A stretch of DNA of 60,371 nt. It comes from an uncultured Alphaproteobacteria bacterium. Lineage in GTDB: Bacteria > Pseudomonadota > Alphaproteobacteria > Rhodobacterales > Rhodobacteraceae. The notes below the pieces were generated by a model. That model had not been told where the DNA came from and ran no database searches. It saw nothing but the letters and a program-made list of their open reading frames with translations. Shown here in pieces: positions 24,897-47,335 of this stretch (positions are counted from its first letter, which is position 1; each line of letters begins with the position of its first letter). Where the stretch lies: positions 1 through 60,371 of the forward strand of contig CABZEW010000009.1 in NCBI GenBank assembly GCA_902524845.1, read 5' to 3'. A program made the position numbers and the translations under genes.

Positions 24897-24905
24897 GTAA
24901 TTGTC

Positions 24906-25583: not shown

Positions 25584-25585
25584 CC

Positions 25586-31392: not shown

Positions 31393-31393
31393 T

Positions 31394-32425: not shown

Positions 32426-33841
32426 CTATTCCATAATTGCTTTAGTCTCTAAAAATTCATCCAAACCCCATTCGGCTTTTTCCCGTCCATTGCCAGATTG
32501 CTTAAAGCCACCAAATGGAGCATTTGTTCCCCCACTACCATAATTAACATGTACTTGTCCTGCTCTTATCTGTCTAGCGACACTTTTTAATTTTTCTGAA
32601 TCGCTACCACATACATAAGCAGAGAGACCATAGCTCGTATCATTAGCAATTTGAACCGCATGATCCATGTCCTCGTATGGTATCACAGATAGAACGGGAC
32701 CAAATATTTCCTCTTGTGCAATATCCATAGAGTTGTCTACGCTCCCAAAAACAGTGGGTTTAACGAAGTAACCTGCATTAACCCCAATCGGTTTTCCTAA
32801 TCCCCCAGTTACTATTTTAGCACCAGCCTTAATACCAGATTCAATTAACCTTTGCACCTTATCAAATTGCGTTCGACTTACTAAGGGACCAATGTCAGTC
32901 TCCTCTTTTGTAGGGTCACCAGTTATTAACTTCTCAGCAACATTTTTAGCAATTTCCAAAGCTTCATCTTGCCGGGTTTTTGGTACTATCATGCGAGTTG
33001 GTGCATTACAAGACTGCCCGGTGTTCTCCATAATTTTTTGCACACCAATAGTGACGGATTGCTCAAACTTTTCATCATCAAAAATTATGTTTGGTGATTT
33101 TCCTCCAAGTTCCTGACTTACTCTCTTCACTGTTTTCGCAGCGGCTTGTGCTACTGCAACGCCTCCTCTAGTTGAACCTGTGAAAGACATCATATCTACA
33201 TCTTTATGGTTTGATAAGGCTTCTCCGACTACCGGGCCCAAACCATGTACCATATTAAATACTCCTTCTGGGACCTTTGCAGCGTCCATAATCTCAGCAA
33301 TTATATTAGCGGACAGCGGAGATATTTCACTTGGCTTTAAAACTGCTGTGCACCCTGAGGCAAGACACGGCCCAAGTTTTGAAATGGTTTGGTTTATTGG
33401 CCAATTCCAAGGTGTAATAAGTCCACAAACACCGATTGGTTCATGTCTAACAATGTAGCCATTGAAAGGGTATTCGAATTTATACTCTTCAAGTACTCTT
33501 ATCGCAGTCTTTAAATGGCCTAAGCCTACAGCTGCTTGCGCTCCACGAGAAAGTTTTAAAGGTGAACCCATTTCTTTTGTTATAGCTTCTACAAAATCCT
33601 CAAAGCGATTTTTAAACTGATGTCTTATCTCCTTTAATAGTTCTAAACGCTCAGCTACACTCGTCCGTCCATAATTTGAGAAAGCAGATTTTGCGGCCTC
33701 AACAGCCTTATCAATGTCTGCTTGGGAACCAACGTTTAGAGTTCCAACGACTGATTCATCCGATGGGTTGACAATATCAATCGTTTCATCTTTAGCGGGT
33801 AAAATCCATTCACCATTAATATAAAATTTATCCAGTTTCAT
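32426..33841 (-). CDS. NAD(P)-dependent aldehyde dehydrogenase
   Basis: A 471-residue aldehyde dehydrogenase. PWNWPINQ near 145 and FTGSTRGG near 222 are the cofactor segments, ELGGKSPN near 243 carries the general-base Glu, and GQSCNAPTRM near 278 carries the nucleophile Cys. PFGGFKQSG near the C-terminus is standard. I chose the ATG at 33841 because GGAGG lies directly upstream; an earlier in-frame ATG would add 13 residues. It lies 16 bases after the AA_synth gene and just before the poly-G tract. The aldehyde is unknown, but it is probably an intermediate of this operon's pathway. Confidence 0.88.
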   Translation of the reverse strand: MKLDKFYINGEWILPAKDETIDIVNPSDESVVGTLNVGSQADIDKAVEAAKSAFSNYGRTSVAERLELLKEIRHQFKNRFEDFVEAITKEMGSPLKLSRGAQAAVGLGHLKTAIRVLEEYKFEYPFNGYIVRHEPIGVCGLITPWNWPINQTISKLGPCLASGCTAVLKPSEISPLSANIIAEIMDAAKVPEGVFNMVHGLGPVVGEALSNHKDVDMMSFTGSTRGGVAVAQAAAKTVKRVSQELGGKSPNIIFDDEKFEQSVTIGVQKIMENTGQSCNAPTRMIVPKTRQDEALEIAKNVAEKLITGDPTKEETDIGPLVSRTQFDKVQRLIESGIKAGAKIVTGGLGKPIGVNAGYFVKPTVFGSVDNSMDIAQEEIFGPVLSVIPYEDMDHAVQIANDTSYGLSAYVCGSDSEKLKSVARQIRAGQVHVNYGSGGTNAPFGGFKQSGNGREKAEWGLDEFLETKAIME

Positions 33842-33857
33842 TAATTTACCTCCACAG

Positions 33858-34460
33858 TTATATACCTGCTGGGTTTTCAACAGATTTTCCTAAAGCTTTT
33901 AAATCAGAGTAGCGGTCCCCTATCCTATGATGAGGTCTCCCACTTGTCGCAGCACCCAGTGCACATATTATTTCATCAACGCCAGGAGCATCATATATAG
34001 AAAATTGGACAGTCAAATAATGTGAACGCCTGCCAGTGTCATGCTTGTCCATAAGTGGTATTTGAATTTGCGTATTTGCTGGTCCTCTAGTATTTGTGAA
34101 ACCTAGGTAGCTTTTGGCACCAACTGCTTCTCTGTAAAAGTTCCCAAATTGCAAAGTATGGATAATTGCTGAGGCATGCTCTATTTCACAGCTAGTACCA
34201 GCTATCGCTGCCTTCCCGTACGCTTCAATCTTTTCGCCACCACCTACCATAGAAATCAGACGGTCCGTAAGTAATTTGCCCATTACGGGAGCTATTCTTT
34301 TTATTTCTGGCTTCAAGTCTTCAACAAATCCTTTGCCCTTCCAAGGATTTTCTAAAACAGCGGCGACACCAATTATGCGAAGAATAGGTTCGGCTTCTTT
34401 TCCACCCTCACGGTATATATCCTCATCAAAAGTAACAATCTTTCTTAATTCTTGAAGCAT
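33858..34460 (-). CDS. AA_synth (amino acid synthesis) family protein
   Basis: A 200-residue protein that I assign to the AA_synth family (Pfam PF06684), whose biochemical role is not established. Recognisable parts are RIIGVAAVLENPWKG (about 28-42), GKAAIAGTSCEIEHASAIIH (about 82-101), and a C-terminal VCALGAATSGRPHHRIGDR-like segment. No membrane helix or signal peptide. AGGAA precedes the ATG. It is the first gene of the tightly packed series that runs to 29081, with the aldehyde dehydrogenase start 16 bases after its stop. Confidence 0.78.
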   Translation of the reverse strand: MLQELRKIVTFDEDIYREGGKEAEPILRIIGVAAVLENPWKGKGFVEDLKPEIKRIAPVMGKLLTDRLISMVGGGEKIEAYGKAAIAGTSCEIEHASAIIHTLQFGNFYREAVGAKSYLGFTNTRGPANTQIQIPLMDKHDTGRRSHYLTVQFSIYDAPGVDEIICALGAATSGRPHHRIGDRYSDLKALGKSVENPAGI

Positions 34461-34546: not shown

Positions 34547-35335
34547 TCAACCTACAGTAGCAATAAACGAATCTATCTTTGAGAAAACCTTTTTATAATC
34601 TTCAACTAATGCCATGTGTCTTAAATCCTTAAGAATACAAACATCGCTTTTTGTGAAATTTTTTGCAATTTCTTTTGCGGCATCAGGGCCATTAGAAAAA
34701 TCTTGATCGCACGTTATTATAAGACTTGGCTTATTTTCATTTACTGATTTAAGATCAACAGATCCGTAATAGAGTATGGGATAGATTTTAGAATAAACTT
34801 CTTTTTTATTACTATTAACCCAGTTACGTACTAACTGAACGATATGAGAGTTTTTTTGCTGAAACTCGTTACTAAACCATCTTTTTATAGCTGCCTCTGT
34901 AGTAAACTCTGGACCTTTTTCCCTCAACAATTCTGCTCTTTCTAAAATTTCATCCCTTTCGTGATCTAATAGCCTATTTGGAGAATTAAGAAGCACCAAT
35001 GCTTCCACTTTACATGGATGAACAGACGCAAATTTTCGAGAAATCATTGATCCTAATGAAAACCCAACTAGTATTATTCGCTTCATATCAAGGTAATTTA
35101 ATATTTCTGAAAGTTGATCCACGAACAAAGTCAGTGAAATTTCATCATCAGGATCTTTGCTATCTCCGTGCCCAAGAAGATCATAAATAAGCACATTGCA
35201 ATTTTTAAATAAAGAAATTTGCCATGCCCAAACATCTTGGTTAAGTCCTAACCCATGGATTAAAACGAGTGTTTTAAGATTAGGTTCCTTAAAATAATAT
35301 TTATAGCAGTTTCCATTAAAATATTGTCTCTTCAT
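34547..35335 (-). CDS. Alpha/beta hydrolase
   Basis: A 262-residue alpha/beta hydrolase. LIHGLGLNQDVW (about 22-34) supplies the oxyanion hole, VGFSLGSM near 97 is the nucleophile elbow with Ser, ITCDQDFS near 208 gives the likely catalytic Asp, and LRHMALVED near 240 the His. Family members include esterases and C-C hydrolases, and the sequence does not select among them. It follows RidA by 6 bases and precedes the AA_synth gene by 86 bases on the same strand, so it probably belongs to the same pathway. Confidence 0.85.
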   Translation of the reverse strand: MKRQYFNGNCYKYYFKEPNLKTLVLIHGLGLNQDVWAWQISLFKNCNVLIYDLLGHGDSKDPDDEISLTLFVDQLSEILNYLDMKRIILVGFSLGSMISRKFASVHPCKVEALVLLNSPNRLLDHERDEILERAELLREKGPEFTTEAAIKRWFSNEFQQKNSHIVQLVRNWVNSNKKEVYSKIYPILYYGSVDLKSVNENKPSLIITCDQDFSNGPDAAKEIAKNFTKSDVCILKDLRHMALVEDYKKVFSKIDSFIATVG

Positions 35336-35341
35336 ATTTTT

Positions 35342-35725
35342 TTACTCTGGTTTATACGCCACCACCTCTATTTCGACTAGAACATCTACCAAAAAATTGC
35401 TCACAAGGGCAGATCTAGCTGGTGGCTCATGAGAAAAATACTCACCATAAATTGAGTTAAACCCAGGAAAGTCATCTCTATTCTTCAGCCAAACCATAGC
35501 TTTAACGACATCTTGCAATTGACATCCAGCTTCTGAGAGTGTGTTCTTAATTTCATCAAGAACTATTCTTGTTTGCTCTTCTATGGATCCCTCAGTTATA
35601 ATAACTCCATTTTTCATTGGAACTTGCCCTGTTAGAAATACGAAGTCACCTGCTCTAACAGCTTTGGATAATGAAAGCTTTCTTCCATTTATTATAAGTG
35701 ACTCACCGATTATTTCTTTAGCCAT
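35342..35725 (-). CDS. RidA/YjgF family protein
   Basis: A 127-residue RidA/YjgF/YER057c/UK114 protein. FLTGQVPMKNG, EQTRIVLDEIKNTL and the C-terminal PARSALVSNFLVDVLVEIEVVAY are family hallmarks. The Arg in PARSAL is the residue that in RidA binds the carboxylate of the imine substrate, and the final Glu in VEIE is also kept. RidA deaminates reactive 2-aminoacrylate-type imines. The start at the second Met is preferred because GGTGAAG precedes it. It heads the hydrolase/AA_synth gene series and hints at an enamine or imine intermediate there. Confidence 0.88.
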   Translation of the reverse strand: MAKEIIGESLIINGRKLSLSKAVRAGDFVFLTGQVPMKNGVIITEGSIEEQTRIVLDEIKNTLSEAGCQLQDVVKAMVWLKNRDDFPGFNSIYGEYFSHEPPARSALVSNFLVDVLVEIEVVAYKPE

Positions 35726-35876
35726 ATTCTTCACCCACATAAAATATTGAATTATCCGTTAAAATTGCAATTATGAAAATAGCTTTTTATTTATAACGCA
35801 ATAAATAGTTATTGTTTTTGATCATTTTTCTCTTGTAAACTTGATTAAGAATTATAAAGAAAGCGTGAAACAAAGA

Positions 35877-37358
35877 ATGGGCAGATTAGAAAATTTTAAA
35901 ATGTTAATTGATGGGGAATGGGTATTTTCTTCTGACAACAAAACCTTCAAAAGCTCAAACCCTACGACAGGAGAAAATTGGTGCACTGTACCAGAGGCAT
36001 CAGCAGCAGACGTCAATAAAGCAGTAGACTCAGCTTATAAGGCATTTGCAGAGGGGCCTTGGTCCAAAATGACGCCGACCGAAAGAGGAGAACATCTTCG
36101 AAAACTAGCCGACATATTAGCAAGTAAATCCGAGGAATTAGGGAAGATTGAAACCATAGATACCGGAAAGATGTTAAAGGAAACTAAATGGCAAGCAAAA
36201 TATATCTCACAATTCTTTAACTTTTTTGCTGGATGCGCAGACAAAGTTTCCGGTCAAACATTACCAATAGATAAACCGGATCTATTTGTGTTCACAAATA
36301 GAGAGCCTTTAGGCGTAGTAGCGGCAATTGTTCCATGGAATTCACAATTATTTCTCGTTGCAGTAAAAATCGGTCCCGCATTAGCTGCTGGAAACACAAT
36401 CGTTTTAAAGGCTTCGGAGCACGCATCAGCAGCTATGCTTGCTTTTGGTAAATGTGTTGAGGAAGCAGGCATACCTCCCGGAGTAGTGAATATAATAACT
36501 GGTCACGGAGATCCCTGTGGAAAAGCTTTAACAAGCCATCCTAAGATTGCTAGAATATCTTTTACTGGAGGACCAGCATCGGCACGGCACATAATAAAAA
36601 ATTCTGCTGAAAATTTTGCAGAAGTTTCTCTTGAATTAGGAGGAAAGTCACCGTTTATTGTTTTCGATGATGCGGATATTGAGAATGCAGTTAATTGCTC
36701 TATAGCCGGAATTTTTGGCGCAACAGGCCAAAGCTGCGTTGCTGGGTCAAGACTATACTTGCAAGAAAATATAGCAGACGAGTTTTTGAGTTTAATTGTT
36801 GAACGAGCAAAAGAAATTAAAATTGGTGACCCCTTACTTGATGAAACTCAAATGGGTCCTCTTTGTACCAAAGGGCAACTCGAAAATATAAAAACCGAAC
36901 TTTCTTTTGCTGTAGAAGAGGGCGCAACTTTACTTTGCGGAGGTAAATCACCGGAAGGTCTAGGCGAGCTATTTTTTGAACCTACAATTGTGTCATGCCC
37001 AAGTCAAAAGCTCAAAATAGTAGACACAGAATTATTTGGGCCCGTATTGTCCGTTATAAAATTTAAAACAGAGGAGGAGGTGATATCTCTTGCTAACGAT
37101 ACCAAACATGGCTTGGCAGCAGGTATTTTCTCAAAAAGTAATTCTAGATGTCTAAGATTAAGCAAAGCAGTTCATGCTGGGATAGTTTGGGTTAATACAT
37201 ATAGAGTGGTTTCTCCAATCGCAGAGTTTGGTGGTTTTAAGAATTCGGGGTACGGTAGGGAAAGTGGCTTTCAAGCTATTTACGACTACACTCGCCCTAA
37301 AACCATTTGGATGAATATGTCGGATGAGCCGGCCGCCAATCCATTTGTCATGAAATGA
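35877..37358 (+). CDS. Aldehyde dehydrogenase, possibly trimethylaminobutyraldehyde or betaine aldehyde dehydrogenase
   Basis: A 493-residue aldehyde dehydrogenase with PWNSQLFL near 143, FTGGPASAR near 224, ELGGKSPFI near 246 (general base Glu) and GQSCVAGSRLY near 281 (nucleophile Cys). It resembles the betaine-type branch. It heads the plus-strand operon of carnitine genes, so 4-trimethylaminobutyraldehyde to gamma-butyrobetaine is a reasonable guess, with betaine aldehyde an alternative. The ATG at 35877 is chosen; an earlier in-frame TTG at 35841 is less likely. The divergent RidA gene shares the upstream promoter region. Confidence 0.8.
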   Translation: MGRLENFKMLIDGEWVFSSDNKTFKSSNPTTGENWCTVPEASAADVNKAVDSAYKAFAEGPWSKMTPTERGEHLRKLADILASKSEELGKIETIDTGKMLKETKWQAKYISQFFNFFAGCADKVSGQTLPIDKPDLFVFTNREPLGVVAAIVPWNSQLFLVAVKIGPALAAGNTIVLKASEHASAAMLAFGKCVEEAGIPPGVVNIITGHGDPCGKALTSHPKIARISFTGGPASARHIIKNSAENFAEVSLELGGKSPFIVFDDADIENAVNCSIAGIFGATGQSCVAGSRLYLQENIADEFLSLIVERAKEIKIGDPLLDETQMGPLCTKGQLENIKTELSFAVEEGATLLCGGKSPEGLGELFFEPTIVSCPSQKLKIVDTELFGPVLSVIKFKTEEEVISLANDTKHGLAAGIFSKSNSRCLRLSKAVHAGIVWVNTYRVVSPIAEFGGFKNSGYGRESGFQAIYDYTRPKTIWMNMSDEPAANPFVMK

Positions 37359-37390
37359 AGCATTAAAAATTATCAAGGGGGATAAAGTGC

Positions 37391-38428
37391 ATGAAATTTG
37401 ATTTAGCAATAAATCTGGAACGAGCAGATAAATCTTTGTCAATGAAGGACGTAAAGAATCATACACTTGACATGGTGCAAATGGCTGATGACAGCGGTTT
37501 TAATATTATATGGGCTGCTGAGCATCACGCATTAGAAATGACAATTGCTCCAAACCCTTTTCAAATAATAACATGGTGGGCGGAAAATACAAATAGTGTA
37601 AGGCTTGGTACAGCAGTAGCAGCTGCAGCTTATTGGCACCCAATAAAATTGGCGGGAGAAGCAGCTTTTACCGACTTAATTACGGAAGGTCGTCTAGAAT
37701 TTGGAATAGGCTCAGGTGCATACCAAAGAGAATTTGACAGAATGCATCCAGGGCTAAAGCAATCTGATGCATGGAGATACATGCAGGAGAGCCTTCCTGC
37801 GGTCAAAAAACTTTGGGAAGGCGATTATGAGCATAGTGGGGAATTTTGGTCTTTTCCATTATCCACATCCGTTCCTAAGCCTGTCCAAAAAGGTGGGCCT
37901 CCAGTATGGGTAGCTGCTAGAGCACCGATAACCTATGATTACGCGATAAAAAATCATTGCAATATAATGTCTTGGCCTTTCACTAGACCATTTGCAGAAG
38001 CAGAACTTTATAAGCAACGGCTTGATGATGCCTTGGAAAGTGCATCCAATGGGTTTAAACCTATTTTTGCCATGATGAGGCATGCTGCTGTATATAGAAA
38101 CAAAGAAGAGGCAAGTGTCTACATAAAAGCAATTCAACGCATATTAGGTCAGTTTGAAAATCTATATAGAAATTTGGGCGACGTAAAAGACGGCTTCCCT
38201 AAGGAAATAGCTTTAAAGGAACTAGAGAATAGACAGGAATACGATCCAAACATGCTGGAAGAAAATCTAATGTTTGGAACCCCTGATGAGGTTATAAAAA
38301 AATTAAAACTTTACCAAGATCTCGGAGTTGATAATTTTATCTATTACGCATCCATGGGACTGGACCACGATTCACAGAAAAGATCGCTAAAGTTATTTTG
38401 TGAAGAGGTTCTTCCTGCTTTTCAATAA
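37391..38428 (+). CDS. LLM-class flavin-dependent oxidoreductase
   Basis: A 345-residue luciferase-like flavoprotein (bacterial luciferase fold). AEHHALEMTIAPNP near 42, RLGTAVAAAAYWHPIKLAGEA near 77, and GRLEFGIGSGAYQREFDRMHP near 100 are the flavin-binding pattern. GGPPVWVAARAP near 170 and GTPDEVIKKLKLY near 295 are also typical. It uses reduced flavin and oxygen, and the substrate is unknown. GGGGGA lies about 9 bases before the ATG. It sits second in the carnitine operon, 32 bases after the aldehyde dehydrogenase and 9 bases before the CaiD-like gene, so it probably oxidises or demethylates a carnitine-type compound or a precursor. Confidence 0.82.
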   Translation: MKFDLAINLERADKSLSMKDVKNHTLDMVQMADDSGFNIIWAAEHHALEMTIAPNPFQIITWWAENTNSVRLGTAVAAAAYWHPIKLAGEAAFTDLITEGRLEFGIGSGAYQREFDRMHPGLKQSDAWRYMQESLPAVKKLWEGDYEHSGEFWSFPLSTSVPKPVQKGGPPVWVAARAPITYDYAIKNHCNIMSWPFTRPFAEAELYKQRLDDALESASNGFKPIFAMMRHAAVYRNKEEASVYIKAIQRILGQFENLYRNLGDVKDGFPKEIALKELENRQEYDPNMLEENLMFGTPDEVIKKLKLYQDLGVDNFIYYASMGLDHDSQKRSLKLFCEEVLPAFQ

Positions 38429-38437
38429 GGACAAAAA

Positions 38438-39241
38438 ATGACGAGTGAGCTTGAGGTAGAAATTAAAGAAAGAATATTAGAAATTAAAATTAATAAACCA
38501 AAAGTAAACGCTATAGACCTAAAACTAAGTCAAGATTTAGGAAAAGCTTTTGCAGAGTTACGAGACAACCCTGACTTGAGAGTTGGTATAATTACTGGAG
38601 AAGGAGATAAGATTTTTTCGGCTGGGTGGGACCTCAAAGCCGTTAATTCTGGAGAAATGGAATTAGACAATTGGTGGGAAAAAGCAGATTACGGTGATGG
38701 AGGGTTTGCTGGGTTAACGGAAAACTGGAATTTAAATAAACCAGTAATTTGCGCTCTTAATGGTCATGCAATTGGAGGCGGTTTTGAATTAGCGATGTCG
38801 TGCGATTTAATAATAGCAGCAGAGCATGTAGAATTTGGGCTTCCTGAAATGCCGCTTGGGATCGTTCCCGATGCCGGCGCATTACAAAGATTGCCAAGAA
38901 GAATCCCCTACAATATCGCTATGGAAATGCTTTTCCTAGGCCGTAGAATGTCAGCTCAAGAGGCAAAAAGCTATGGACTAGTAAATAAAGTAGTTAATAA
39001 AACTTCACTTCTAGAGACCGCGCGCGAGTGGGCTGATAAGATGTCACAAACAGCTCCACTGGCAATGCAAAGTGTAAAGGAAGTCTTGCGAGCAATAGAA
39101 TGCTTGCCTTTGAAGAACGCTTTTTCTGAAATGAGATCGGGAAATTTAGAAACGTATTCAAACATGCTTAAGTCTGATGATGCAGCAGAGGGCGTGGCTG
39201 CATTTGTTGAAAAAAGAGACCCAAATTTTAAGGGAAAATAA
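38438..39241 (+). CDS. caiD: CaiD-like carnitinyl-CoA dehydratase (crotonobetainyl-CoA hydratase)
   Basis: A 267-residue crotonase close to CaiD, which hydrates crotonobetainyl-CoA to carnitinyl-CoA. SAGWDLKAVN (about 61-70) is the oxyanion-hole strand. GGFAGLTENWNLNKPVICALNG (about 88-109) is very like CaiD, and Glu117 and Glu137 match the two catalytic Glu residues with the correct 20-residue spacing. Length is normal. AAGGAC precedes the ATG directly after the LLM gene. The neighbouring carnitine dehydrogenase and BKACE support the carnitine role, but other beta-hydroxyacyl-CoA substrates are possible. Confidence 0.78.
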   Translation: MTSELEVEIKERILEIKINKPKVNAIDLKLSQDLGKAFAELRDNPDLRVGIITGEGDKIFSAGWDLKAVNSGEMELDNWWEKADYGDGGFAGLTENWNLNKPVICALNGHAIGGGFELAMSCDLIIAAEHVEFGLPEMPLGIVPDAGALQRLPRRIPYNIAMEMLFLGRRMSAQEAKSYGLVNKVVNKTSLLETAREWADKMSQTAPLAMQSVKEVLRAIECLPLKNAFSEMRSGNLETYSNMLKSDDAAEGVAAFVEKRDPNFKGK

Positions 39242-39242
39242 T

Positions 39243-40190
39243 TTGAAAAATTTAAATAAGGTCTCAACAGTAGCCAGCATTGGAGGTGGCCCTATAGGCG
39301 CCGGGTGGGCAGCTCACTTCTTAGCTAAAGGTCTAAATGTAAAGTGTTATCTTCATTCTGAAGATGAGATTGATGATTACAAATCCTTGATTAAAACAGC
39401 TTGGGAAACATTAGAAAAGTTAGGAATTAATAAAAATGCATCGATAGAAAATATGCATATTTATACTGACCTGAAAGATAGTTTAACAGACGTTGATTTT
39501 GTGCAAGAAAGTATCCCAGAGATATTGGAGATAAAGCAAGAGTTTTATTCTAAAATTGATTTGTTTTTAAGACCTGATGTTATAATAGCATCGTCAACAT
39601 CTGGATTGTTAATCTCAGAGATTGTAAAAAACTGTGATACAAGAGATAGAGCAATTGTTGGACATCCCTTCAATCCACCCTACCTCCTGCCGTTGGTAGA
39701 AGTTGTGGCTAGTAACTATACGGACAAAGTCATTGTTGATCAGGCTGTTAATTTTTACAGGGAATTTGACAAGGTCCCAATTTTACTTAAAAAAGAAATT
39801 CCAGGTTTTATTGCAACGCGTTTACAGGAAGCATTGTGGCGAGAGGCATTGCATATGGTTGCAAATGAAGAAGCAACCCCTGAGCAAATTGATCTTGCAC
39901 TTATTAATGGGCCAGCCCCCAGAATGGCTTATCAAGGTCAATGCATGGCATTTCACGTAGCTTGTGGCGAAGGGGGTATGTCAACAAATTTGGACCAGTT
40001 TGGTCCTGCCTTAAAATTACCATGGACTAGACTTAAGGCCCCGGAATTAACACAAGATTTACGAGATAAAATGGTCAATGGTTGTAAAGAAATGTCTAAG
40101 GGTAAGCACTTTCTAGAAATGGCTAAAGAAAGAGATAATGCCATTGCAGCAATTTTAAGTGCATTAAAAAATAACCATCCGAATAATTAG
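39243..40190 (+). CDS. cdhA: L-carnitine 3-dehydrogenase (3-hydroxyacyl-CoA dehydrogenase family)
   Basis: A 315-residue NAD-dependent dehydrogenase of the 3-hydroxyacyl-CoA dehydrogenase superfamily in the short form used for L-carnitine, giving 3-dehydrocarnitine. SIGGGPIGAGWAAHF near 12-26 is the NAD fold. ESIPEILEIKQEFY near 96 and GHPFNPPYLLPLVEV near 140 hold the catalytic and substrate segments. I chose the TTG at 39243 (one base after the CaiD stop, with AAGGGAAA upstream). An upstream in-frame ATG would lie inside caiD and would add an atypical tail. The BKACE gene follows after 9 bases, exactly as expected for carnitine breakdown. Confidence 0.82.
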   Translation: MKNLNKVSTVASIGGGPIGAGWAAHFLAKGLNVKCYLHSEDEIDDYKSLIKTAWETLEKLGINKNASIENMHIYTDLKDSLTDVDFVQESIPEILEIKQEFYSKIDLFLRPDVIIASSTSGLLISEIVKNCDTRDRAIVGHPFNPPYLLPLVEVVASNYTDKVIVDQAVNFYREFDKVPILLKKEIPGFIATRLQEALWREALHMVANEEATPEQIDLALINGPAPRMAYQGQCMAFHVACGEGGMSTNLDQFGPALKLPWTRLKAPELTQDLRDKMVNGCKEMSKGKHFLEMAKERDNAIAAILSALKNNHPNN

Positions 40191-40199
40191 GAGGCAATC

Positions 40200-41087
40200 A
40201 TGAACTTTGAAGTTATAGTGACATGCGCGATAACAGGCGCAGGTGAAACTGTTGATAAAAGCCCTCATGTTCCGGTAACTCCAAAAGAGGTAGCAGAGGC
40301 TGCCATCGAAGCGGCTAATGCAGGTGCATCAGCTGCTCATATTCATGTAAGAGATCCTGAAACAGGCAAAGGTTCCCGAGATGTGAGCTTATTTAAAGAG
40401 GCGGTCGATAGAATAAGAGATGATAAAACGGACGTAGTTCTAAACCTCACAGCAGGTATGGGAGGTGATTGGGTACCTGATGAAACTGATTTTTCAATGC
40501 CAGGCGCTGGTACTGATATGATAGGACCTGACGAAAGACTTGCTCATATAGAAATATGTAAACCAGAAATTTGTTCTCTGGATTGCGGAACTTTAAATTT
40601 TGGTGTTAACGACCATTCTATTTATATATCAACATTACCCATTCTAAGAAGAATGGCTGAATTAACTAAATCCTGGGGAGTAAAACCAGAATTAGAAGTT
40701 TTTGATTTAGGCCATATCAGATTAGCGAAACAGTTAATTGAGGAGGGTTTAATCAAGGAACCTCCCATGTTTCAAATTTGCTTAGGAATACCCTGGGGTG
40801 CCGACCAAAGTGTTGACACCATGAAGGTTATGAAAGATCACTTGCCATCAAACGCAACCTGGTCTGGATTTGGCATTTCGAGGATGCAGGTTCCGATGGC
40901 TGCTGCTGCAGTCGCGATGGGTGGGAATGTTCGGGTCGGTCTAGAAGATAACTTGTATCTATCAAAAGGCGTTCTCGCCACTAACGGCCAATTGGTTGAA
41001 AAAATTATAAAAATAATTAACCTTATGGGAGGTAGAGTTCTTACACCAGATGAAACAAGAAAAAAACTTTCATTAATAAAAAATTGA
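40200..41087 (+). CDS. cdhC: BKACE: 3-dehydrocarnitine cleavage enzyme (CdhC-like)
   Basis: A 295-residue BKACE (DUF849) enzyme. The N-terminus [24 protein letters not shown] and [15 protein letters not shown] (metal His pair near 47-49) are the signature of the carnitine branch. [10 protein letters not shown] near 80 is also typical. It condenses 3-dehydrocarnitine with acetyl-CoA to give acetoacetate and betainyl-CoA. AGGAGG sits 6 bases before the ATG, the best ribosome-binding site of the operon. Its position after carnitine dehydrogenase makes this role likely. No dedicated betainyl-CoA thioesterase (CdhB) is present. Confidence 0.82.
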
Positions 41088-41102
41088 TAATTGAGAAAAA
41101 CT

Positions 41103-42260
41103 ATGTATGACACTTCAAACGATTCAAAGATGCTTTTAGACACTGTTAAAAAATTTATGACGGATGAAATCTACCCACACGAAGATCGCGTTGATAAGCT
41201 TGGGTACGTCCCAGATGAAATTAGTAAACAAATAGAAGAAAAATCAAAAGAGGCTGGTCTCTTTGCCGCTAATTTACCAGAGAAATACGGTGGAGGAGGA
41301 TTAGATTATTCTTCAATGATGGTTGTTGAAAGAGAATATGGGAAAGCTTCTCATGCTTTGCATTCATGGATAGCACGCCCAACAGAAATACTTCTTGCTT
41401 GCAACGAAAATCAAATGGAAGAATATCTTTTCCCATGTGTTAAGGGCGATAAACGAGAGTTATTTGCATTAACAGAACCTGATGCTGGGTCAGACATAAT
41501 GAGCATGAAGTCAAATGCAAAAAAGGATGGTGCTGACTGGATCTTAAATGGTTCAAAACATTTTATTTCTGGACCGTGCATTCCAGATTTTGCGATTGTT
41601 TTTGCTGCTACTGGAGAAGATGAAACACCACGTGGAAAAAGAAAAAGAATTACAGCTTTTCTTGTCGATGTTGGAATTCCGGGGTTTGACATCCAAGAAG
41701 GCACTAAATGCATTAGCTATAGGGGCTATAAAAACTACCAATTGAGCTTCAATGACGTCAGGCTTTCTGATGATAAGATTTTAGGCAGTGAAGGAAATGG
41801 TCTTTCATTATCTGGGAAGTGGCTTGGCATGGGCCGTATATGGGTTGGAGCAACTTGTTGTGGAAAGGCAGAGCGAATACTTGATTTAGCTTTAGATTGG
41901 GCTGCTCAAAGAAAACAGTTTGGAAAGCCAATAGGAACTTTTCAAGCAACAGGATTTAAACTAGCAGACATGAAAATGAACTTAAGAGCCGCAGATCTTT
42001 TAGTAAAAGACGCTGTAGATAGGGCTTTGTCAGGAACGATGACAGATGAAGATGCCGCTATTGTTAAAATTTTCTGTTCAGAAATGCTTAACAAAGTAGC
42101 CGATGATACTGTGCAAATTTTTGGAGGAATGGGTTTAATGGAAGAGATGCCTATTGAAAGACTATGGCGAGACTCTAGATTAGAAAGAATTTGGGATGGC
42201 ACTTCAGAAATACAAAGACACATCGTTACTCGCTCAATGCTTAGACCTCTTGGGGCATGA
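41103..42260 (+). CDS. Acyl-CoA dehydrogenase, probably gamma-butyrobetainyl-CoA dehydrogenase
   Basis: A 385-residue flavin acyl-CoA dehydrogenase. FALTEPDAGSD near 120 and FISG.. near 150 are FAD-binding parts, AQRKQFGKPIGTFQATGF near 275 is the adenine-binding helix, and RIWDGTSEIQRHI near 368 is the C-terminal catalytic segment with Asp where many homologues have Glu. In an operon with a CaiD-like hydratase it most likely oxidises gamma-butyrobetainyl-CoA to crotonobetainyl-CoA. I chose the ATG at 41103; an upstream TTG has no better site. Its TGA overlaps the next gene's start as ATGA, so the CoA ligase is coupled to it. Confidence 0.8.
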   Translation: MYDTSNDSKMLLDTVKKFMTDEIYPHEDRVDKLGYVPDEISKQIEEKSKEAGLFAANLPEKYGGGGLDYSSMMVVEREYGKASHALHSWIARPTEILLACNENQMEEYLFPCVKGDKRELFALTEPDAGSDIMSMKSNAKKDGADWILNGSKHFISGPCIPDFAIVFAATGEDETPRGKRKRITAFLVDVGIPGFDIQEGTKCISYRGYKNYQLSFNDVRLSDDKILGSEGNGLSLSGKWLGMGRIWVGATCCGKAERILDLALDWAAQRKQFGKPIGTFQATGFKLADMKMNLRAADLLVKDAVDRALSGTMTDEDAAIVKIFCSEMLNKVADDTVQIFGGMGLMEEMPIERLWRDSRLERIWDGTSEIQRHIVTRSMLRPLGA

Positions 42261-44329
42261 GTTCTAATTCTTTTAAAAGCATCGATCGTTTTTTTAAAGC
42301 AAAGTCAGTCGTTTTTATTGGTGGCAAAGATTTATTTGTTCCTATTAGAGAATTAAAAAGACGAGGTTTTAAAGGAAAAATTTTTGTTGTTAACCCTAAA
42401 AGATTGAAAATAGGTAGCTACAAATGCTTACGAAAAGTTTCAGACCTTCCATTGAGCCCAGATGCTGCCTTTATCGCCGTCCCTGCCTCCGAGGTTATTT
42501 CTACGGTTAGAGAACTAAAAGCAGTCAAGTGTAAAGGAATAGTATGTTATTCTGCGGGATTTAAAGAAACTGGAAAAACGGGTAAATATCTTGAAAATAT
42601 GCTTATTAAAGAATGTGGAGATATTCCGTTAATAGGACCTAATTGCTATGGCTTTATAAACTTTTCTGACAACGTCGCACTATGGCCATTTTCCCACAAA
42701 GGCACACGTTGCAAAAAAGGTATTGCCCTGATCACTCAGAGCGGAATGCTATCGTCAGACATTATAATGGCAACGAGGTCACTACCCATAATCTTTATGG
42801 TGTCTGCAGGAAATCAAGCTGTGACAAAAGTTGAAGACTTAATTTGCTATTTCAGCAAAAAGGCCGACGTATCCTGTATTGCTATTCACATCGAAGGAAT
42901 TTCTAATTTAACCAGATTTGTGGAGGCCGCAAAATTTTCGTTTTATGCGGACAAACCCATTATTGTTTATAAAACGGGCAGATCACAAATTGGGAAAAGA
43001 ATTGCTAAAAGTCATACAGGATCTCTGTCTGGAAATAATGAAGCGTATTCAGCACTTTTTAAACAATTGGCTATAACTGAAGTACATGACCCAATTCAGC
43101 TACTTGAAACAGCTAAATTATTCAGCATTTCAAGCCCTATAAAAACAAATAGAATTCTAGCCTTAACTTGTTCTGGCGGTGGAGCAGCAATGGTCGCGGA
43201 TAATGCTGAAAAACTAAAGCTTAGATTACCAAATTTTAATAAAAGCCAAAAAATATCGCTGGCAAAAGTGTTGCCAAAAATAGCAACAATCTCTAACCCG
43301 TTGGATTACACAACTCCTATATGGGGGATTTCAGAAAAAACAGGCCCAGTTTTCAAAAATGCACTAAAACAAAAATATTCAACTGCAATTTTGGTACAAG
43401 ATTTTCCTAACGCGCAAATCAACGATACGGAGAAACTTTATTTAAATGATACCAAAGCTTTTATAAACGAATGCAAATTAACTGGGCTTACTCCTATTAT
43501 CTGTTCAACTCTACCAGAAAATATAAATGAAGACATAGGCAGTAAAATTTTGAAGTTAGGCGGGGTCCCTATGCAAGGCATATTTAACTGTTTAAACGCA
43601 GTGAAGCACCTTGTAGATTATTACAATTTCAACAATGAGGATGAGCTTCAGAGTTTTAAATTAGTCCACTACAAAAATTTTAAATCTAAATTCAAAGATG
43701 AGTATGGAGGAAAGGCTCAAATTAAAGCTAAAGGGATAAAAGTTCCTATTAGAACCATTCTTGACGACCCAAAAAAGTTAGGAAATAAAAAAATTCAATT
43801 TCCAGTAGTATTAAAGTTTACTAGCACCACTATTTTACACAAAACAGAATTGGGTGCTGTTGAATTAAATATCAATAACGTTGAAGAACTAACTAAAAAA
43901 TATATCAAAATGAAAAAAACAGTAGGTTCAAAAGAATTAAAAAAAGGCTCTTTTTTTATTGAGGAAATGCTTCCAAAGCCGATCGCTGAATTGTTTTTAA
44001 GCATACGACAAGATAAAACATTTGGCGATATATTAGTGCTAGGTATGGGCGGATCCTTGACTGAAATATATAGGGATACAAAAACATTTATATTACCGAT
44101 ATCGAAAAACTATATGTTGAAAGAGGTAAAGAAAATGAATTTCTTTTATTTAATCAATGGATTTCGAAATAGAAGTAAAGTAAATTTAGATATGATGACA
44201 CATGAGATATTTAAGATAATCGAATTTCACCAAGAAGAAGGCAACCGGTGCCACTATATAGAAATTAATCCAGCTTTCGTTTATGAGGACGCAATGATTG
44301 CAACTGACTGCGTTTTAAGCACTGGATAA
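42257..44329 (+). CDS. ADP-forming acyl-CoA synthetase (ACD family, fused alpha and beta parts)
   Basis: A 690-residue single-chain ADP-forming acyl-CoA synthetase, a reversible enzyme that interconverts acyl-CoA, ADP and phosphate with acid, CoA and ATP. The order is a CoA-binding Rossmann domain (1 to about 140, with GGKDLFVPI and LIGPNCYGF), a succinyl-CoA ligase-like region with the phosphohistidine loop AKSHTGSLSG near 255, and an ATP-grasp domain (about 480-690, with EEMLPKPIAEL and GMGGSLTEIY). In this operon it could activate gamma-butyrobetaine, or conserve ATP from betainyl-CoA or carnitinyl-CoA in place of a thioesterase. Its stop is 6 bases from the proV stop. Confidence 0.82.
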   Translation: MSSNSFKSIDRFFKAKSVVFIGGKDLFVPIRELKRRGFKGKIFVVNPKRLKIGSYKCLRKVSDLPLSPDAAFIAVPASEVISTVRELKAVKCKGIVCYSAGFKETGKTGKYLENMLIKECGDIPLIGPNCYGFINFSDNVALWPFSHKGTRCKKGIALITQSGMLSSDIIMATRSLPIIFMVSAGNQAVTKVEDLICYFSKKADVSCIAIHIEGISNLTRFVEAAKFSFYADKPIIVYKTGRSQIGKRIAKSHTGSLSGNNEAYSALFKQLAITEVHDPIQLLETAKLFSISSPIKTNRILALTCSGGGAAMVADNAEKLKLRLPNFNKSQKISLAKVLPKIATISNPLDYTTPIWGISEKTGPVFKNALKQKYSTAILVQDFPNAQINDTEKLYLNDTKAFINECKLTGLTPIICSTLPENINEDIGSKILKLGGVPMQGIFNCLNAVKHLVDYYNFNNEDELQSFKLVHYKNFKSKFKDEYGGKAQIKAKGIKVPIRTILDDPKKLGNKKIQFPVVLKFTSTTILHKTELGAVELNINNVEELTKKYIKMKKTVGSKELKKGSFFIEEMLPKPIAELFLSIRQDKTFGDILVLGMGGSLTEIYRDTKTFILPISKNYMLKEVKKMNFFYLINGFRNRSKVNLDMMTHEIFKIIEFHQEEGNRCHYIEINPAFVYEDAMIATDCVLSTG

Positions 44330-44335
44330 CAAAAA

Positions 44336-45379
44336 CTACTTATATTTTTCTGATTTTTTTAGTGATTTTTCACGAAAAAGTGCAGAAATAGCTGCGTCAA
44401 GGGTAACTTTGCCAATTTTTTTACCCTTATCATCGACTACACTACATTCATTATTTTTTTCATTATTTAAAATTTTTAGAGCATCTTCAAGTGGGCATGA
44501 ACTATCTAGCGAAACTCCCTTACTGCTACCTTTTTGCATAATAGATCTAACTTCTATAACTTTTCCACGATTTATATCTTTTATAAAATCAGAAATATAG
44601 TTGTCAGCAGGTTTCATGATTATTTCTTGAGGATTACCTTTTTGAATAATTTTACCATCCCTCAAGATTGCAATATTGTCTCCTATTCGAAGGGCTTCGT
44701 CTAAATCATGAGTAATAAAAACGATTGTCTTATGAAGGTCTTTCTGAAGATCAAGAAGAATATTTTGCATATCAGTTCTAATCAGAGGATCTAGAGCAGA
44801 AAAAGCTTCATCCATCAATAATATAGGTGCATCAGTTGCTAATGCTCTTGCTAGCCCTACTCTCTGCTGCATGCCTCCAGATAATTGAGATGGGTATCTC
44901 TCCTCAAAGCCTGACAACCCTACACTTTCAATCCACTTGTGACTTTTTTCTTTAGCCACTCCCTCGTGTTGGCCTTGAATGGTTAATCCATACGCAACAT
45001 TTTGTGCTACAGTTCTATGAGGCAAAAGAGCAAATTTTTGAAATACCATCGAAGTTTTTTTTCGCCTAAATTCACGTAGCTGTAATTGCGACATAGCCAG
45101 AATATCTTCATCATCTACAGTGATCTCACCAGAAGTTGGCTCGATAAGACGATTAATGTGCCTTATTAAGGTTGACTTTCCTGAACCTGATAACCCCATA
45201 ATCACTTGTATCCTCTGCTCAGGGATATCTAAATTAATATCGTTTAAACCTAAAACGTGACCGTGATTGTCCAAAAGCTCCTGCTTTGATATTCCATTTT
45301 TGACTGGATCGATAAAAGATTCTCCCTTAGGACCAAAAATCTTATAGAGATTTTTTATTTTGAGCTTAGGTTTATTCAT
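44336..45379 (-). CDS. proV: Glycine betaine/proline ABC transporter ATP-binding protein
   Basis: A 347-residue ABC ATPase of the ProV type. Walker A is GLSGSGKST (about 58-66), the signature is LSGGMQQRVGLARAL (about 165-179), and Walker B is PILLMDEAFSALD. A C-terminal CBS-like regulatory part covers about residues 265-335. I chose the ATG at 45379, where GGGAAAGAG lies just upstream; it overlaps the permease end by 8 bases. Earlier in-frame Met codons would lie deeper in proW. It powers uptake of glycine betaine or related compatible solutes such as carnitine, and its operon converges with the carnitine operon. Confidence 0.92.
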   Translation of the reverse strand: MNKPKLKIKNLYKIFGPKGESFIDPVKNGISKQELLDNHGHVLGLNDINLDIPEQRIQVIMGLSGSGKSTLIRHINRLIEPTSGEITVDDEDILAMSQLQLREFRRKKTSMVFQKFALLPHRTVAQNVAYGLTIQGQHEGVAKEKSHKWIESVGLSGFEERYPSQLSGGMQQRVGLARALATDAPILLMDEAFSALDPLIRTDMQNILLDLQKDLHKTIVFITHDLDEALRIGDNIAILRDGKIIQKGNPQEIIMKPADNYISDFIKDINRGKVIEVRSIMQKGSSKGVSLDSSCPLEDALKILNNEKNNECSVVDDKGKKIGKVTLDAAISALFREKSLKKSEKYK

Positions 45380-46262
45380 GCTCTTTCCCATATCGATGCG
45401 CTTGAAGTCTTTGACCATATCTCTGAGACACTCTATCAAAAATTATTGCCAAGGCCACGATCGCCAACCCATTCATTAAACCTAAGGTCAGGTATTGATT
45501 TTGGACCGCCTGAAGAACGGGCATCCCCAAACCTTTAACGCCAATCATAGAAGCAATGACAACCATCGCTAATGCCATCATTATAGTTTGATTAACGCCT
45601 GCAAAAATATTCGGCAGCGCTAAAGGGATTTGAACGGAAAATAGCTTTTGTCTGTAACTAGAGCCAAATGCATCCGCTGCCTCTAAGATTTCTTTATCAA
45701 CCAACCTTATACCCAGGTTAGTTAAACGAATTATCGGAGGCAAGGCGTAAACGCATACGGCAATCAAACCGGGTACTCTACCGATACCTAAAAGCATTAC
45801 AACAGGCAAAAGGTAAACGAATATTGGAATTGTTTGCATTAAATCTAAAATTGGTGTGATAGCGCTCTGAACACGATCATACCGCGACATCAATATACCA
45901 ATCGGTATGCCAACTGCTATGCAAATTAGTGTAGCAACGGATATGAGGGATATAGTTGCCATCATATCTTTCCACATACCGAAGTAACCTATCAACATAA
46001 AGGAAACAACCGAACCTAAAGCTAGTTGCCAGCTTCGTGAGCCAAGATAAGCAAAGGCAGCAACAAGGACCAAAATAATTGGCCAAGGAGTCGCAATTAG
46101 CAGTTTTTCTAACCAGACTAAAAAAAAATATAACGGATCAAAAAAAGCCTCAATAGCATCTCCATTTGATCTGGACCATTCCCTAAAAGATCCATCTATA
46201 CCTTTTTTTAAATCTCTTAAGTCTCTCTTACCTAAACTCGGAAATTCTGCCAACCAATCCAT
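45372..46262 (-). CDS. proW: Glycine betaine/proline ABC transporter permease
   Basis: A 296-residue inner-membrane permease of the ProW type with about six hydrophobic helices. The EAA-loop region EAADAFGSSYRQKLFSVQIPLALPNIFAG (about 198-226) contacts the ATPase. The N-terminal tail (about 1-45) is soluble and acidic/basic mixed, as usual for ProW. GAGGG lies about 8 bases before the ATG. A GC-rich hairpin separates it from proX. Its last codons overlap proV. Confidence 0.92.
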   Translation of the reverse strand: MDWLAEFPSLGKRDLRDLKKGIDGSFREWSRSNGDAIEAFFDPLYFFLVWLEKLLIATPWPIILVLVAAFAYLGSRSWQLALGSVVSFMLIGYFGMWKDMMATISLISVATLICIAVGIPIGILMSRYDRVQSAITPILDLMQTIPIFVYLLPVVMLLGIGRVPGLIAVCVYALPPIIRLTNLGIRLVDKEILEAADAFGSSYRQKLFSVQIPLALPNIFAGVNQTIMMALAMVVIASMIGVKGLGMPVLQAVQNQYLTLGLMNGLAIVALAIIFDRVSQRYGQRLQAHRYGKEHE

Positions 46263-46330: not shown

Positions 46331-47335
46331 TTAGAGTGATGCCTTAATCTTTTTGGCGATGTCTGCTGACACCCAAGGTGTCCAAACGTCTTCATATTCA
46401 ATTAGGAACTCTATAGCCGCATCAGGACCATTTGCTTGGTTATCTTCCATATATACCAACATTTTATTCATTATTGGTCCTGGAAAGATGCGCTTTCCGA
46501 AGTAACCCATAGCATCTGAACCAGCTGATTCTTTGAAGTTTGTGGTTACAATTGTGTGAACCTCAGACTTTGTCCATGCTGAAGGTTTTGGATCGGCACA
46601 ATCTTGCTCTGCCTTTGCGATACATCCATCCCAATTTTCAGCACCAGCAAACGGAACTCCAAAAGGAACAAGTTGCATATTAAATTTTCCGATCGGAGCT
46701 GTTGGGGCCCAGTAATAACCGAACCAGTTATCTCCCCTTTGAACGGCTTTTGCCATAGATGCATCAAGACCAGCTTGTGAACCTGGATCAATTAGTATCC
46801 AACCTTTATCTTCCATTTTAAACGCTCTGAAAAGGTTGATATTTGAAAGTTGGCATCCCCATCCCGCAGGACATCCTATGAATTCTCCTTTTGAAGGATC
46901 TTCTTTCGCAGGGAAAAGGTCTGGTCGTTCTAGAATATCCAACACTGTCTTAATATCAGGATTTTTAGTAAGTACATAATCTGGAACCCACCATCCTTCT
47001 CCGAGGTCAGTAATTGGCATTTCTCTAGCGGAGTGTAGCCTTCCGTCATCCATCGCTTTAAATAGCGGCTCTCTTACCGCGTTGATCCAAAGTTCTGCTG
47101 CAACATCTGGTTGCCCTTTTTCATTCATAGATGCAAAAGTTGTAGTAGTTGCACCAGCAACCATCTCTATTTCACAACCATAGCCTTCTTCTAGAATGAT
47201 CTTATCGACGTTTGCCATTAGTGTGGCTGATGGCCAGTTCATGTCAGCCATAGAAATTGATCCACATGCCGCATAAGCATTTGTGGCCAAAGCCATGGTG
47301 CCAGCAACGACAGTTGACATCAAAAATTTATACAT
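46331..47335 (-). CDS. proX: Glycine betaine-type substrate-binding protein
   Basis: A 334-residue periplasmic binding protein of the ProX/OpuAC family. A signal peptide (residues 1 to about 22, ending NAYA) precedes a mature start ACGSISMADMNWPSA. Several Trp residues (ADMNWPSA, GEGWWVPDY, GWGCQ, WAPTAP) suggest the aromatic cage for a quaternary ammonium. It binds glycine betaine, proline betaine or carnitine; the sequence cannot choose. GGAAAGAG is about 6 bases before the ATG. It heads a proX-proW-proV operon whose hairpin follows its stop. Confidence 0.9.
   Translation of the reverse strand: MYKFLMSTVVAGTMALATNAYAACGSISMADMNWPSATLMANVDKIILEEGYGCEIEMVAGATTTTFASMNEKGQPDVAAELWINAVREPLFKAMDDGRLHSAREMPITDLGEGWWVPDYVLTKNPDIKTVLDILERPDLFPAKEDPSKGEFIGCPAGWGCQLSNINLFRAFKMEDKGWILIDPGSQAGLDASMAKAVQRGDNWFGYYWAPTAPIGKFNMQLVPFGVPFAGAENWDGCIAKAEQDCADPKPSAWTKSEVHTIVTTNFKESAGSDAMGYFGKRIFPGPIMNKMLVYMEDNQANGPDAAIEFLIEYEDVWTPWVSADIAKKIKASL

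Follow-up and report, generated by a model that had tools for sequence, protein, structure and literature searches.

The 60,371-nucleotide contig CABZEW010000009.1 (assembly GCA_902524845.1), from an uncultured alphaproteobacterium of the Rhodobacteraceae, raises the question of why genes resembling those for carnitine and gamma-butyrobetaine breakdown share an operon with a luciferase-like flavin monooxygenase (LLM). This whole stretch, referred to here as the window, is contig 9 of a 1.95-Mb genome (G000) that is 74% complete. The main point of interest is chiefly a conserved, unexplained linkage of two gene modules. The explanation that we favor, with confidence slightly better than even, is that one regulon would unite two catabolic modules for methylated osmolytes, with module A opening a ring and module B breaking down an onium acid. 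The genes concerned are seven same-strand open reading frames (ORFs) at 35901-44329, with at most 32 bases between neighbors and, at the tightest junction, an overlap of 4 bases, and a group on the opposite strand beside them.

35901-37358, plus strand: aldehyde dehydrogenase (ALDH) of the LLM module; 54% identical to the ALDHs of the module loci of Sinorhizobium meliloti and Acinetobacter
37391-38428, plus strand: LLM flavin monooxygenase, the presumed oxygenase component; 38% identical to Tgn-like LLMs (S. meliloti, Acinetobacter) and 44-47% to the Agrobacterium type
38438-39241, plus strand: enoyl-CoA hydratase resembling crotonobetainyl-CoA hydratase (Pfam, NCBIfam)
39243-40190, plus strand: carnitine-dehydrogenase-like 3-hydroxyacid dehydrogenase without a thioesterase domain; TTG start; under both equivalog cut-offs
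40200-41087, plus strand: BKACE (Pfam)
41103-42260, plus strand: acyl-CoA dehydrogenase; ATG start, with an in-frame TTG at 41091; 51% identical to the Rhizobium cluster enzyme
42257-44329, plus strand: acyl-CoA ligase of the ADP-forming type, with an onium acid as its probable substrate; His253, Trp356, His528
35342-35740, minus strand: RidA family protein of the LLM module (family match)
34547-35335, minus strand: alpha/beta hydrolase of the LLM module; PcaD-like family, under cut-offs
33858-34460, minus strand: AA_synth family member (PF06684) belonging to the LLM module; its counterparts at the Acinetobacter and S. meliloti loci are 59-63% identical
32426-33844, minus strand: second ALDH, beside AA_synth; 30-33% identical to the succinate semialdehyde dehydrogenases (SSADHs) of Tgn-like loci

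The original prediction, made from the nucleotide sequence, had described seven tightly spaced genes, and all seven were recovered with the Pfam families it named and are kept across the genus. An LLM is present in 16 of 22 genus genomes (15 of 21 without the window's own). It is followed by the hydratase and then the dehydrogenase in all 16 loci, and preceded by the ALDH in 15, the sixteenth contig beginning inside the LLM. With the gene order kept in 16/16 genus loci, we rejected the LLM as a chance neighbor. The names CaiD and carnitine dehydrogenase express family resemblance, because the scores fall under the NCBIfam equivalog cut-offs: the hydratase scored 316.9 bits against crotonobetainyl-CoA hydratase (NF002936, cut-off 500), the first of its 72 matching models, and the dehydrogenase scored 237.1 and 286.6 bits against two carnitine 3-dehydrogenase models (NF005716, cut-off 592; NF005471, cut-off 414). 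We confirmed 124 LLM homologue loci and used the best 80; among these, the closest LLM relatives belong to AG-numbered uncultured Alphaproteobacteria, presumably single-cell genomes, followed by many Rhodobacterales and some Acidimicrobiales and Gammaproteobacteria. Within the same 80, a second ALDH next to AA_synth occurs in this genus only. Two contigs of one metagenome-assembled genome (L039 and L040) each carry a cluster copy with an LLM 73% identical to that of the window, reflecting either a duplication or a mixed bin.

To place the LLM, we scanned 97 loci and counted genes up to 9 kb from it. The 82 loci of the window's own LLM clade contain the ALDH in 70 cases, the hydrolase in 67, RidA in 56, AA_synth in 53, a flavin reductase in 40, the hydratase in 55 and the dehydrogenase in 54. 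A second, Tgn-like clade (37-39% LLM identity) comprises nine loci from S. meliloti, Rhizobium, Mesorhizobium, Leisingera, Ruegeria, Thioclava, Chimaeribacter and Acinetobacter; AA_synth, hydrolase, flavin reductase, LLM and ALDH are found in 9/9, SSADH in 3/9 and RidA in 0/9. A third, Agrobacterium-type clade of four loci adds CMD proteins to the same core, and in two of these loci a ProXWV transporter lies alongside. Within the 9 kb examined, the nine Tgn-like and four Agrobacterium-type loci lack all five carnitine-type genes. We take the Tgn-like gene content to be that of the trigonelline pathway, with a two-component oxygenase that cleaves C5-C6, an ALDH, a hydrolase, an SSADH and a conserved hypothetical protein; this pathway was reportedly described by Perchat et al. 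in 2018 as TgnA-E of Acinetobacter baylyi. Since the module also occurs without neighboring carnitine-type genes, the ALDH and LLM probably take no part in the carnitine route and would instead form a module with RidA, hydrolase and AA_synth. The assignment of the ALDH as a trimethylaminobutyraldehyde dehydrogenase in the original prediction is therefore not supported, and the LLM step, which it had left unaccounted for, finds a partial account in a trigonelline-type ring-opening module.

The LLM itself does not appear to change with its surroundings. Our tree holds 105 LLMs (the window's, those of 95 of the 96 LLM-bearing loci, with L132 omitted at 27% identity, and nine from further genomes; filters for length and stops removed 0 sequences). 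Within the window clade (n = 92), 60 have carnitine-type genes nearby and 24 do not, the other 8 being too short of flanking sequence to judge. Those with and without interleave, requiring 10 parsimony changes against a mean of 21 and a minimum of 16 in 200 shuffles. When the positives (L199, L202 and L203 left out) were compared with the 11 negatives that have RidA, column 125 (S/T) alone passed a filter for differing majorities (>80% and 60%), and 29 listed pocket-like positions did not separate the positives from negatives of either kind. Because the two groups interleave and their pocket-like positions are alike, the simplest reading is that the LLM substrate is the same with or without module B. 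As a side observation, residues 107-108 are Gly-Ser in the window clade (Ser in all but a few) and Ala-Arg in the other two clades, at a position that is presumably near the flavin phosphate site of luciferase.

The gene content of module A suggests homarine as its substrate: RidA, found in 43 of the 58 window-clade loci that have 5 kb of sequence to each side, stands in place of SSADH, and ring opening of the trigonelline type would yield N-methyl-2-iminoglutarate, a RidA-type substrate, making an SSADH unnecessary. We infer each reaction here from homology and gene content. The LLM, ALDH, hydrolase, RidA and AA_synth would constitute a two-component flavin monooxygenase pathway whose flavin reductase is presumably encoded elsewhere in the genome. 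By analogy with trigonelline degradation, the LLM would open the ring of an N-methylpyridinium carboxylate to an N-formyl aldehyde, which the ALDH would oxidize and the hydrolase deformylate; if the substrate is homarine, RidA would then hydrolyze N-methyl-2-iminoglutarate to 2-oxoglutarate and methylamine. Module A is present in a Ruegeria pomeroyi strain (L060), and the accessible part of PMC12817926 reports that R. pomeroyi draws down homarine fast.

Module B brings a ligase, an acyl-CoA dehydrogenase, a hydratase, a dehydrogenase and BKACE together in the window, as in the S. meliloti/Rhizobium-type gamma-butyrobetaine pathway; an aerobic route from gamma-butyrobetaine to glycine betaine in Sinorhizobium meliloti was reportedly worked out by Bazire et al. 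in 2019. One operon of Rhizobium sp. SU303 encodes BKACE, a dehydrogenase fused to a 4HBT thioesterase, an acyl-CoA dehydrogenase, an "acetate--CoA ligase family" protein and a carnitinyl-CoA dehydratase, to which the window proteins are 53%, 37% (in part), 51%, 32% and 45% identical, respectively. An S. meliloti gamma-butyrobetaine:CoA ligase is named BcoAB in the available text of PMC8364193, and that of PMC12482172 describes an S. meliloti dehydrogenase as a dual-function enzyme that oxidizes carnitine and converts betainyl-CoA to glycine betaine. Judging from the cluster content, BcoAB would be of the ADP-forming type. Given that the five genes match the Rhizobium cluster and that BcoAB is published, the window ligase is most simply viewed as the activating enzyme of a gamma-butyrobetaine-type route, and module B reads as a variant of a known pathway.

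The features of the ligase fit such a role. It contains CoA-binding, Succ_CoA_lig and ATP-grasp domains and both catalytic histidines, as in the ACD superfamily. In an alignment of 12 full-length sequences obtained from 19 loci tried, both histidines are invariant, as is Trp356, which aligns with the cation-pi residue Trp391 of the dimethylsulfoniopropionate (DMSP) lyase DddX (PDB 7cm9); Trp391 binds the sulfonium according to the accessible text of PMC8163506. Where DddX has its cleavage base Glu432, the window ligase has Glu392, but the residue varies among the 12 (E, K, R, S or L); with this elimination-base position variable, we set aside the ligase as a DMSP lyase. Because both histidines and the tryptophan are invariant and the cleavage-base position is not, the ligase most likely activates an onium acid. 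Under our favored explanation, it would activate gamma-butyrobetaine or a close onium acid, which would be desaturated and then hydrated before the 3-hydroxy acid is freed. The dehydrogenase would oxidize this acid, and BKACE would cleave the resulting keto acid to acetoacetate and, for gamma-butyrobetaine, betainyl-CoA. The CoA would leave via a type III CoA-transferase, a fused thioesterase encoded elsewhere, or the ligase in reverse.

The same genome holds other carnitine-type loci. Contig 41 (L122, L213) encodes a second BKACE and a 495-aa dehydrogenase with a 4HBT_2 domain, which scores 645 bits against the carnitine 3-dehydrogenase cut-off of 592, and this fused enzyme is full in 9 of 14 genus genomes searched and a fragment in a tenth. 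Nearby are a DMSP-demethylase-type GcvT protein (463 against a cut-off of 410) and two ORFs resembling folate one-carbon enzymes, named from their sequence starts; a sarcosine-oxidase-alpha-like ORF, under its cut-off, lies at the contig start. Contig 41 thus has the appearance of a second, canonical-looking carnitine/glycine betaine locus. Its BKACE is 65% identical to that of the Rhizobium cluster (window 53%) and its dehydrogenase/thioesterase 49% (window 37%, in part). On contig 2 (L123:4973-6158, minus strand), a hydratase is 73% identical to the Rhizobium carnitinyl-CoA dehydratase (window 45%) and adjoins a match to the last ~126 residues only of the ligase, an apparent remnant of a Rhizobium-type cluster. 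Because these three enzymes are nearer to Rhizobium, a more canonical gamma-butyrobetaine/carnitine set seems to lie in pieces elsewhere in the genome, with the window set paralogous to it. The window set may still act on gamma-butyrobetaine, since no second full-length ligase of the type was found in the 74%-complete genome, or it may act on another onium acid. The original prediction is supported in its gamma-butyrobetaine/carnitine-type route with an ADP-forming ligase, and gamma-butyrobetaine itself has become less sure as the substrate. Relatives encode type III CoA-transferases, as does the window's genome. We rejected the CoA-transferase as a CaiB ortholog; the best curated model for the genome's own copy is succinyl-CoA:mesaconate CoA-transferase (376 of 700 bits), with L-carnitine CoA-transferase at 147 of 413.

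The two modules are tied across a wide range of genomes. We surveyed 149 genomes of the family, one per genus, and a class-level sample of 385 genomes. In the family, LLM matches at E 1e-60 occur in 38/149 genomes; the window-clade LLM was defined as at least 56% identity, a cut chosen post hoc in the gap between 56% and 43%. The LLM lies directly upstream of the hydratase in five of the six genera that have the window-type dehydrogenase, and ~6 kb away on the opposite strand in the remaining one (G156). Ten dehydrogenase loci taken from the class-level sample have the LLM nearby in four (G492, G352, G526 and G450), in shuffled gene orders. In the other six it is absent: G269 and G224 are cut by contig ends; G348 and G338 have a 47-49% identical dehydrogenase with BKACE, and a separate thioesterase was matched in G348; G400 is of the fused dehydrogenase type, and G525 has the dehydrogenase alone. 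A further gene order is seen in the gammaproteobacterial loci L091, L096 and L099. Many roseobacter-type loci moreover encode a fusion protein of ~700 aa that joins a type III CoA-transferase to a flavin reductase. Two full proteins scored above cut-off for each of the two Pfam domains; Pfam was also run on one shortened protein, and the remaining cases are adjoining tblastn matches. Two of the fusions are as follows.

L105:10028-12151, minus strand: CoA-transferase::flavin-reductase fusion, ~700 aa
L060:4029-6140, minus strand: CoA-transferase::flavin-reductase fusion, ~700 aa

The fusion ORF of L053 is 506 aa long, with its CoA-transferase part truncated. In the window's genome, contig 37 (L121:12550-14085) encodes a 50% relative of the fusion for which Pfam shows the CoA-transferase domain alone, yet the match runs into the reductase part; its C-terminal tail resembles a decayed flavin reductase domain. 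In Mesorhizobium (L127:6205-8004), one 600-aa gene annotated as a hydrolase occupies the hydrolase and flavin reductase position, and both queries match it.

Our preferred reason for this tie is a shared regulon for plankton osmolytes, in which common regulation would join otherwise separate pathways, and its main rival is a single pathway. Several points weigh against the preferred reading. The Tgn label reflects gene content, the comparison having been made with Tgn-like loci and not with characterized Tgn proteins. The hydrolase matches its counterparts at the S. meliloti, Acinetobacter and Agrobacterium loci only weakly, with 25-28% identity. No flavin reductase was recognized in the window's cluster, and the one PF01613 match of the 74%-complete genome, on contig 37, was not tied to the LLM. 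The exchange of RidA for SSADH is a tendency, with SSADH-like matches (about 30%) in 11 of the 58 window-clade loci. Module B may not be for gamma-butyrobetaine at all. In the family survey, the window-type dehydrogenase occurs in 6/149 genera and the window-clade LLM in 16/149, including all six (hypergeometric 6e-7, uncorrected for relatedness), and the LLM and module B genes have remained linked through at least seven gene orders, which is more than two unrelated pathways need. The CoA-transferase::flavin-reductase fusion is found in 25/48 carnitine-positive loci and 1/22 negative ones, among loci whose left flank is 5 kb or longer. Finally, ten Rhodobacterales genomes have an LLM locus without module B; eight of them have the fused dehydrogenase only, L053 also has a 38% unfused one, and Pseudooceanicola pacificus (L076, a draft) has neither. 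Together with six Acidimicrobiales and two others, 17 of 18 genomes with a module-B-free LLM locus have a carnitine-type dehydrogenase elsewhere, compared with one of eight genomes of other families in the class.

On a single pathway, the LLM and ALDH would act upstream of gamma-butyrobetaine, for example on trimethyllysine or another betaine via trimethylaminobutyraldehyde, and the remaining operon would finish the degradation. We consider this unlikely as matters stand. Because 17/18 genomes hold a carnitine-type dehydrogenase elsewhere, which could take the product, it has gained strength and the preferred regulon has been slightly weakened; it also draws on the restriction of the window-type dehydrogenase to genera with the LLM (6/6), on the many gene orders and on the fusion of the LLM's likely flavin reductase to a CoA-transferase. 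It is countered by how little LLMs with and without module B differ, by the presence of ALDH and LLM in the core of 13 loci that lack nearby carnitine-type genes, and by P. pacificus, which has module A and whose dehydrogenase matches are no better than E 1.9e-12. The fusion, moreover, need not mean one pathway, because the Mesorhizobium locus apparently joins the same reductase to a hydrolase; this reductase seems to fuse readily with the gene upstream of it. A bolder version, more unlikely still, treats the whole cluster as one pathway or physically coupled machine for an undescribed marine betaine, with flavin-dependent C-C cleavage and CoA-dependent beta-keto cleavage on the same molecule and the fusion handing over between them in roseobacters. 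Such a machine would explain why the window-type set was not found without the LLM in the family sampled and why it is kept beside a separate carnitine locus.

The remaining rivals concern substrates. That module A degrades trigonelline itself, and not homarine, we regard as quite improbable: it shares its five-protein core with loci whose gene content is taken to be that of the tgn pathway, its ALDH (54%) and AA_synth (59-63%) match those of Acinetobacter and S. meliloti, and R11, E44, H45, H46, R117 and R177 are identical in all LLMs of the three clades, but the window LLM, 38% identical to the Tgn-like ones, belongs to another clade, has different residues at 81, 107, 108 and 195, and is accompanied by RidA, and the neighboring ALDH (32426-33844) is under every cut-off, SSADH models included, among the best 25 of 39 models. 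Comparably low in probability is the proposal of the original prediction that the ligase runs in reverse on betainyl-CoA or carnitinyl-CoA, replacing the CdhB thioesterase and saving ATP. ADP-forming ligases are reversible, the catalytic histidines are intact, and the window dehydrogenase has no fused 4HBT thioesterase domain in a Pfam scan. The fused thioesterase on contig 41 and in the genus genomes nevertheless led us to reject the ligase as sole substitute, and the dedicated thioesterase elsewhere that the prediction had named as contrary evidence is there as far as sequence can show; one Rhizobium operon retains both ligase and fused thioesterase, and type III CoA-transferases offer a further exit. 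Considerably more plausible, although we still lean away from it, is that module B acts on another onium acid, such as delta-valerobetaine, D-carnitine or a sulfonium acid, a reading that overlaps our favored explanation, which leaves the acid open. The window dehydrogenase is under both carnitine equivalog cut-offs and the contig-41 enzyme passes one, and BKACE, dehydrogenase and hydratase all have Rhizobium-nearer counterparts elsewhere; this rival gained weight because the contig-2 hydratase is much closer to Rhizobium and stands beside a ligase piece. Against it, that piece is C-terminal only and the window ligase is the sole full-length one found, and the best model of the window hydratase is crotonobetainyl-CoA hydratase.

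Beyond the two modules, a betaine-type ProVWX-like ATP-binding cassette (ABC) transporter faces the operon, and its relatives flank the cluster in G492, a genome of another alphaproteobacterial family.

44336-45370, minus strand: ProV-like ATPase of the betaine-type ABC transporter; 68% relative in G492
45372-46262, minus strand: ProW-like permease; 75% relative in G492
46331-47335, minus strand: OpuAC/ProX-like substrate-binding protein; 70% relative in G492

Just past the ProX-like gene lies an AMP-forming acyl-CoA ligase (47887-49518, minus strand) that is weakly CaiC-like (266 bits, cut-off 651) and another possible betaine CoA ligase. To the other side, a 571-aa ORF without a Pfam match (29695-31410, minus strand) adjoins DUF3726 and M19 dipeptidase genes on a strand that runs away from the cluster. 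Further off, three genes (23580-26482, minus strand) encode a glutamine amidotransferase, a GXGXG protein and a glutamate-synthase FMN domain; we take them to resemble N-methylglutamate synthase, which would fit methylamine use.

Plankton-associated bacteria encounter homarine, trigonelline, gamma-butyrobetaine and carnitine as methylated osmolytes or nutrients. A conserved cluster coupling ring opening of one class of these compounds to CoA-dependent breakdown of the other, spread over Rhodobacterales, further Alphaproteobacteria and some Gammaproteobacteria, would make such osmolyte fluxes easier to infer from metagenomes, and our interpretation offers a testable role to the LLM/RidA/AA_synth module, which is widespread. 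As to why the two are linked, the CoA-transferase::flavin-reductase fusion gives a concrete lead. We found no description of the joint cluster or of the fusion in the literature by title or opening abstract, most subscription papers being outside the search.

By gene content, module A is related to a known type of pathway. Set beside trigonelline degradation, the window has LLM, ALDH, AA_synth and, more weakly, hydrolase homologues of loci with that gene content, as well as shared LLM residues, and relatives add the flavin reductase, present or fused in their loci; it is unlike that system in its separate LLM clade, its RidA, the lack of an SSADH over cut-off, the lack of a flavin reductase in the cluster and the carnitine-type linkage. 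With homarine catabolism the window has a possible substrate in common. Ferrer-Gonzalez et al. 2026, cited in PMC13390433, reportedly describe homarine catabolism with N-methylglutamate dehydrogenase. Module A may be their homarine operon, in which case the LLM part is already known and the linkage alone is new. DddX, the ATP-dependent DMSP lyase, is like the window ligase in its ACD superfamily membership, phospho-histidine and onium-binding Trp391 position (PMC8163506), whereas the Glu432 position varies among the 12 ligases aligned. The Arctic SAR11 island of PMC12421898 combines, in the accessible text, betaine transport, carnitine dehydrogenase, BKACE, an acyl-CoA thioesterase and a butyrobetaine dioxygenase; it is unlike the window in having the dioxygenase, and no LLM is among the genes named there. 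The nearest known counterpart of module B is the S. meliloti/Rhizobium gamma-butyrobetaine pathway, with the same five activities in one operon in Rhizobium sp. SU303, from which the window departs in its dehydrogenase without a fused thioesterase, in the closer relatives of three enzymes elsewhere in the genome and in its junction with the LLM module.

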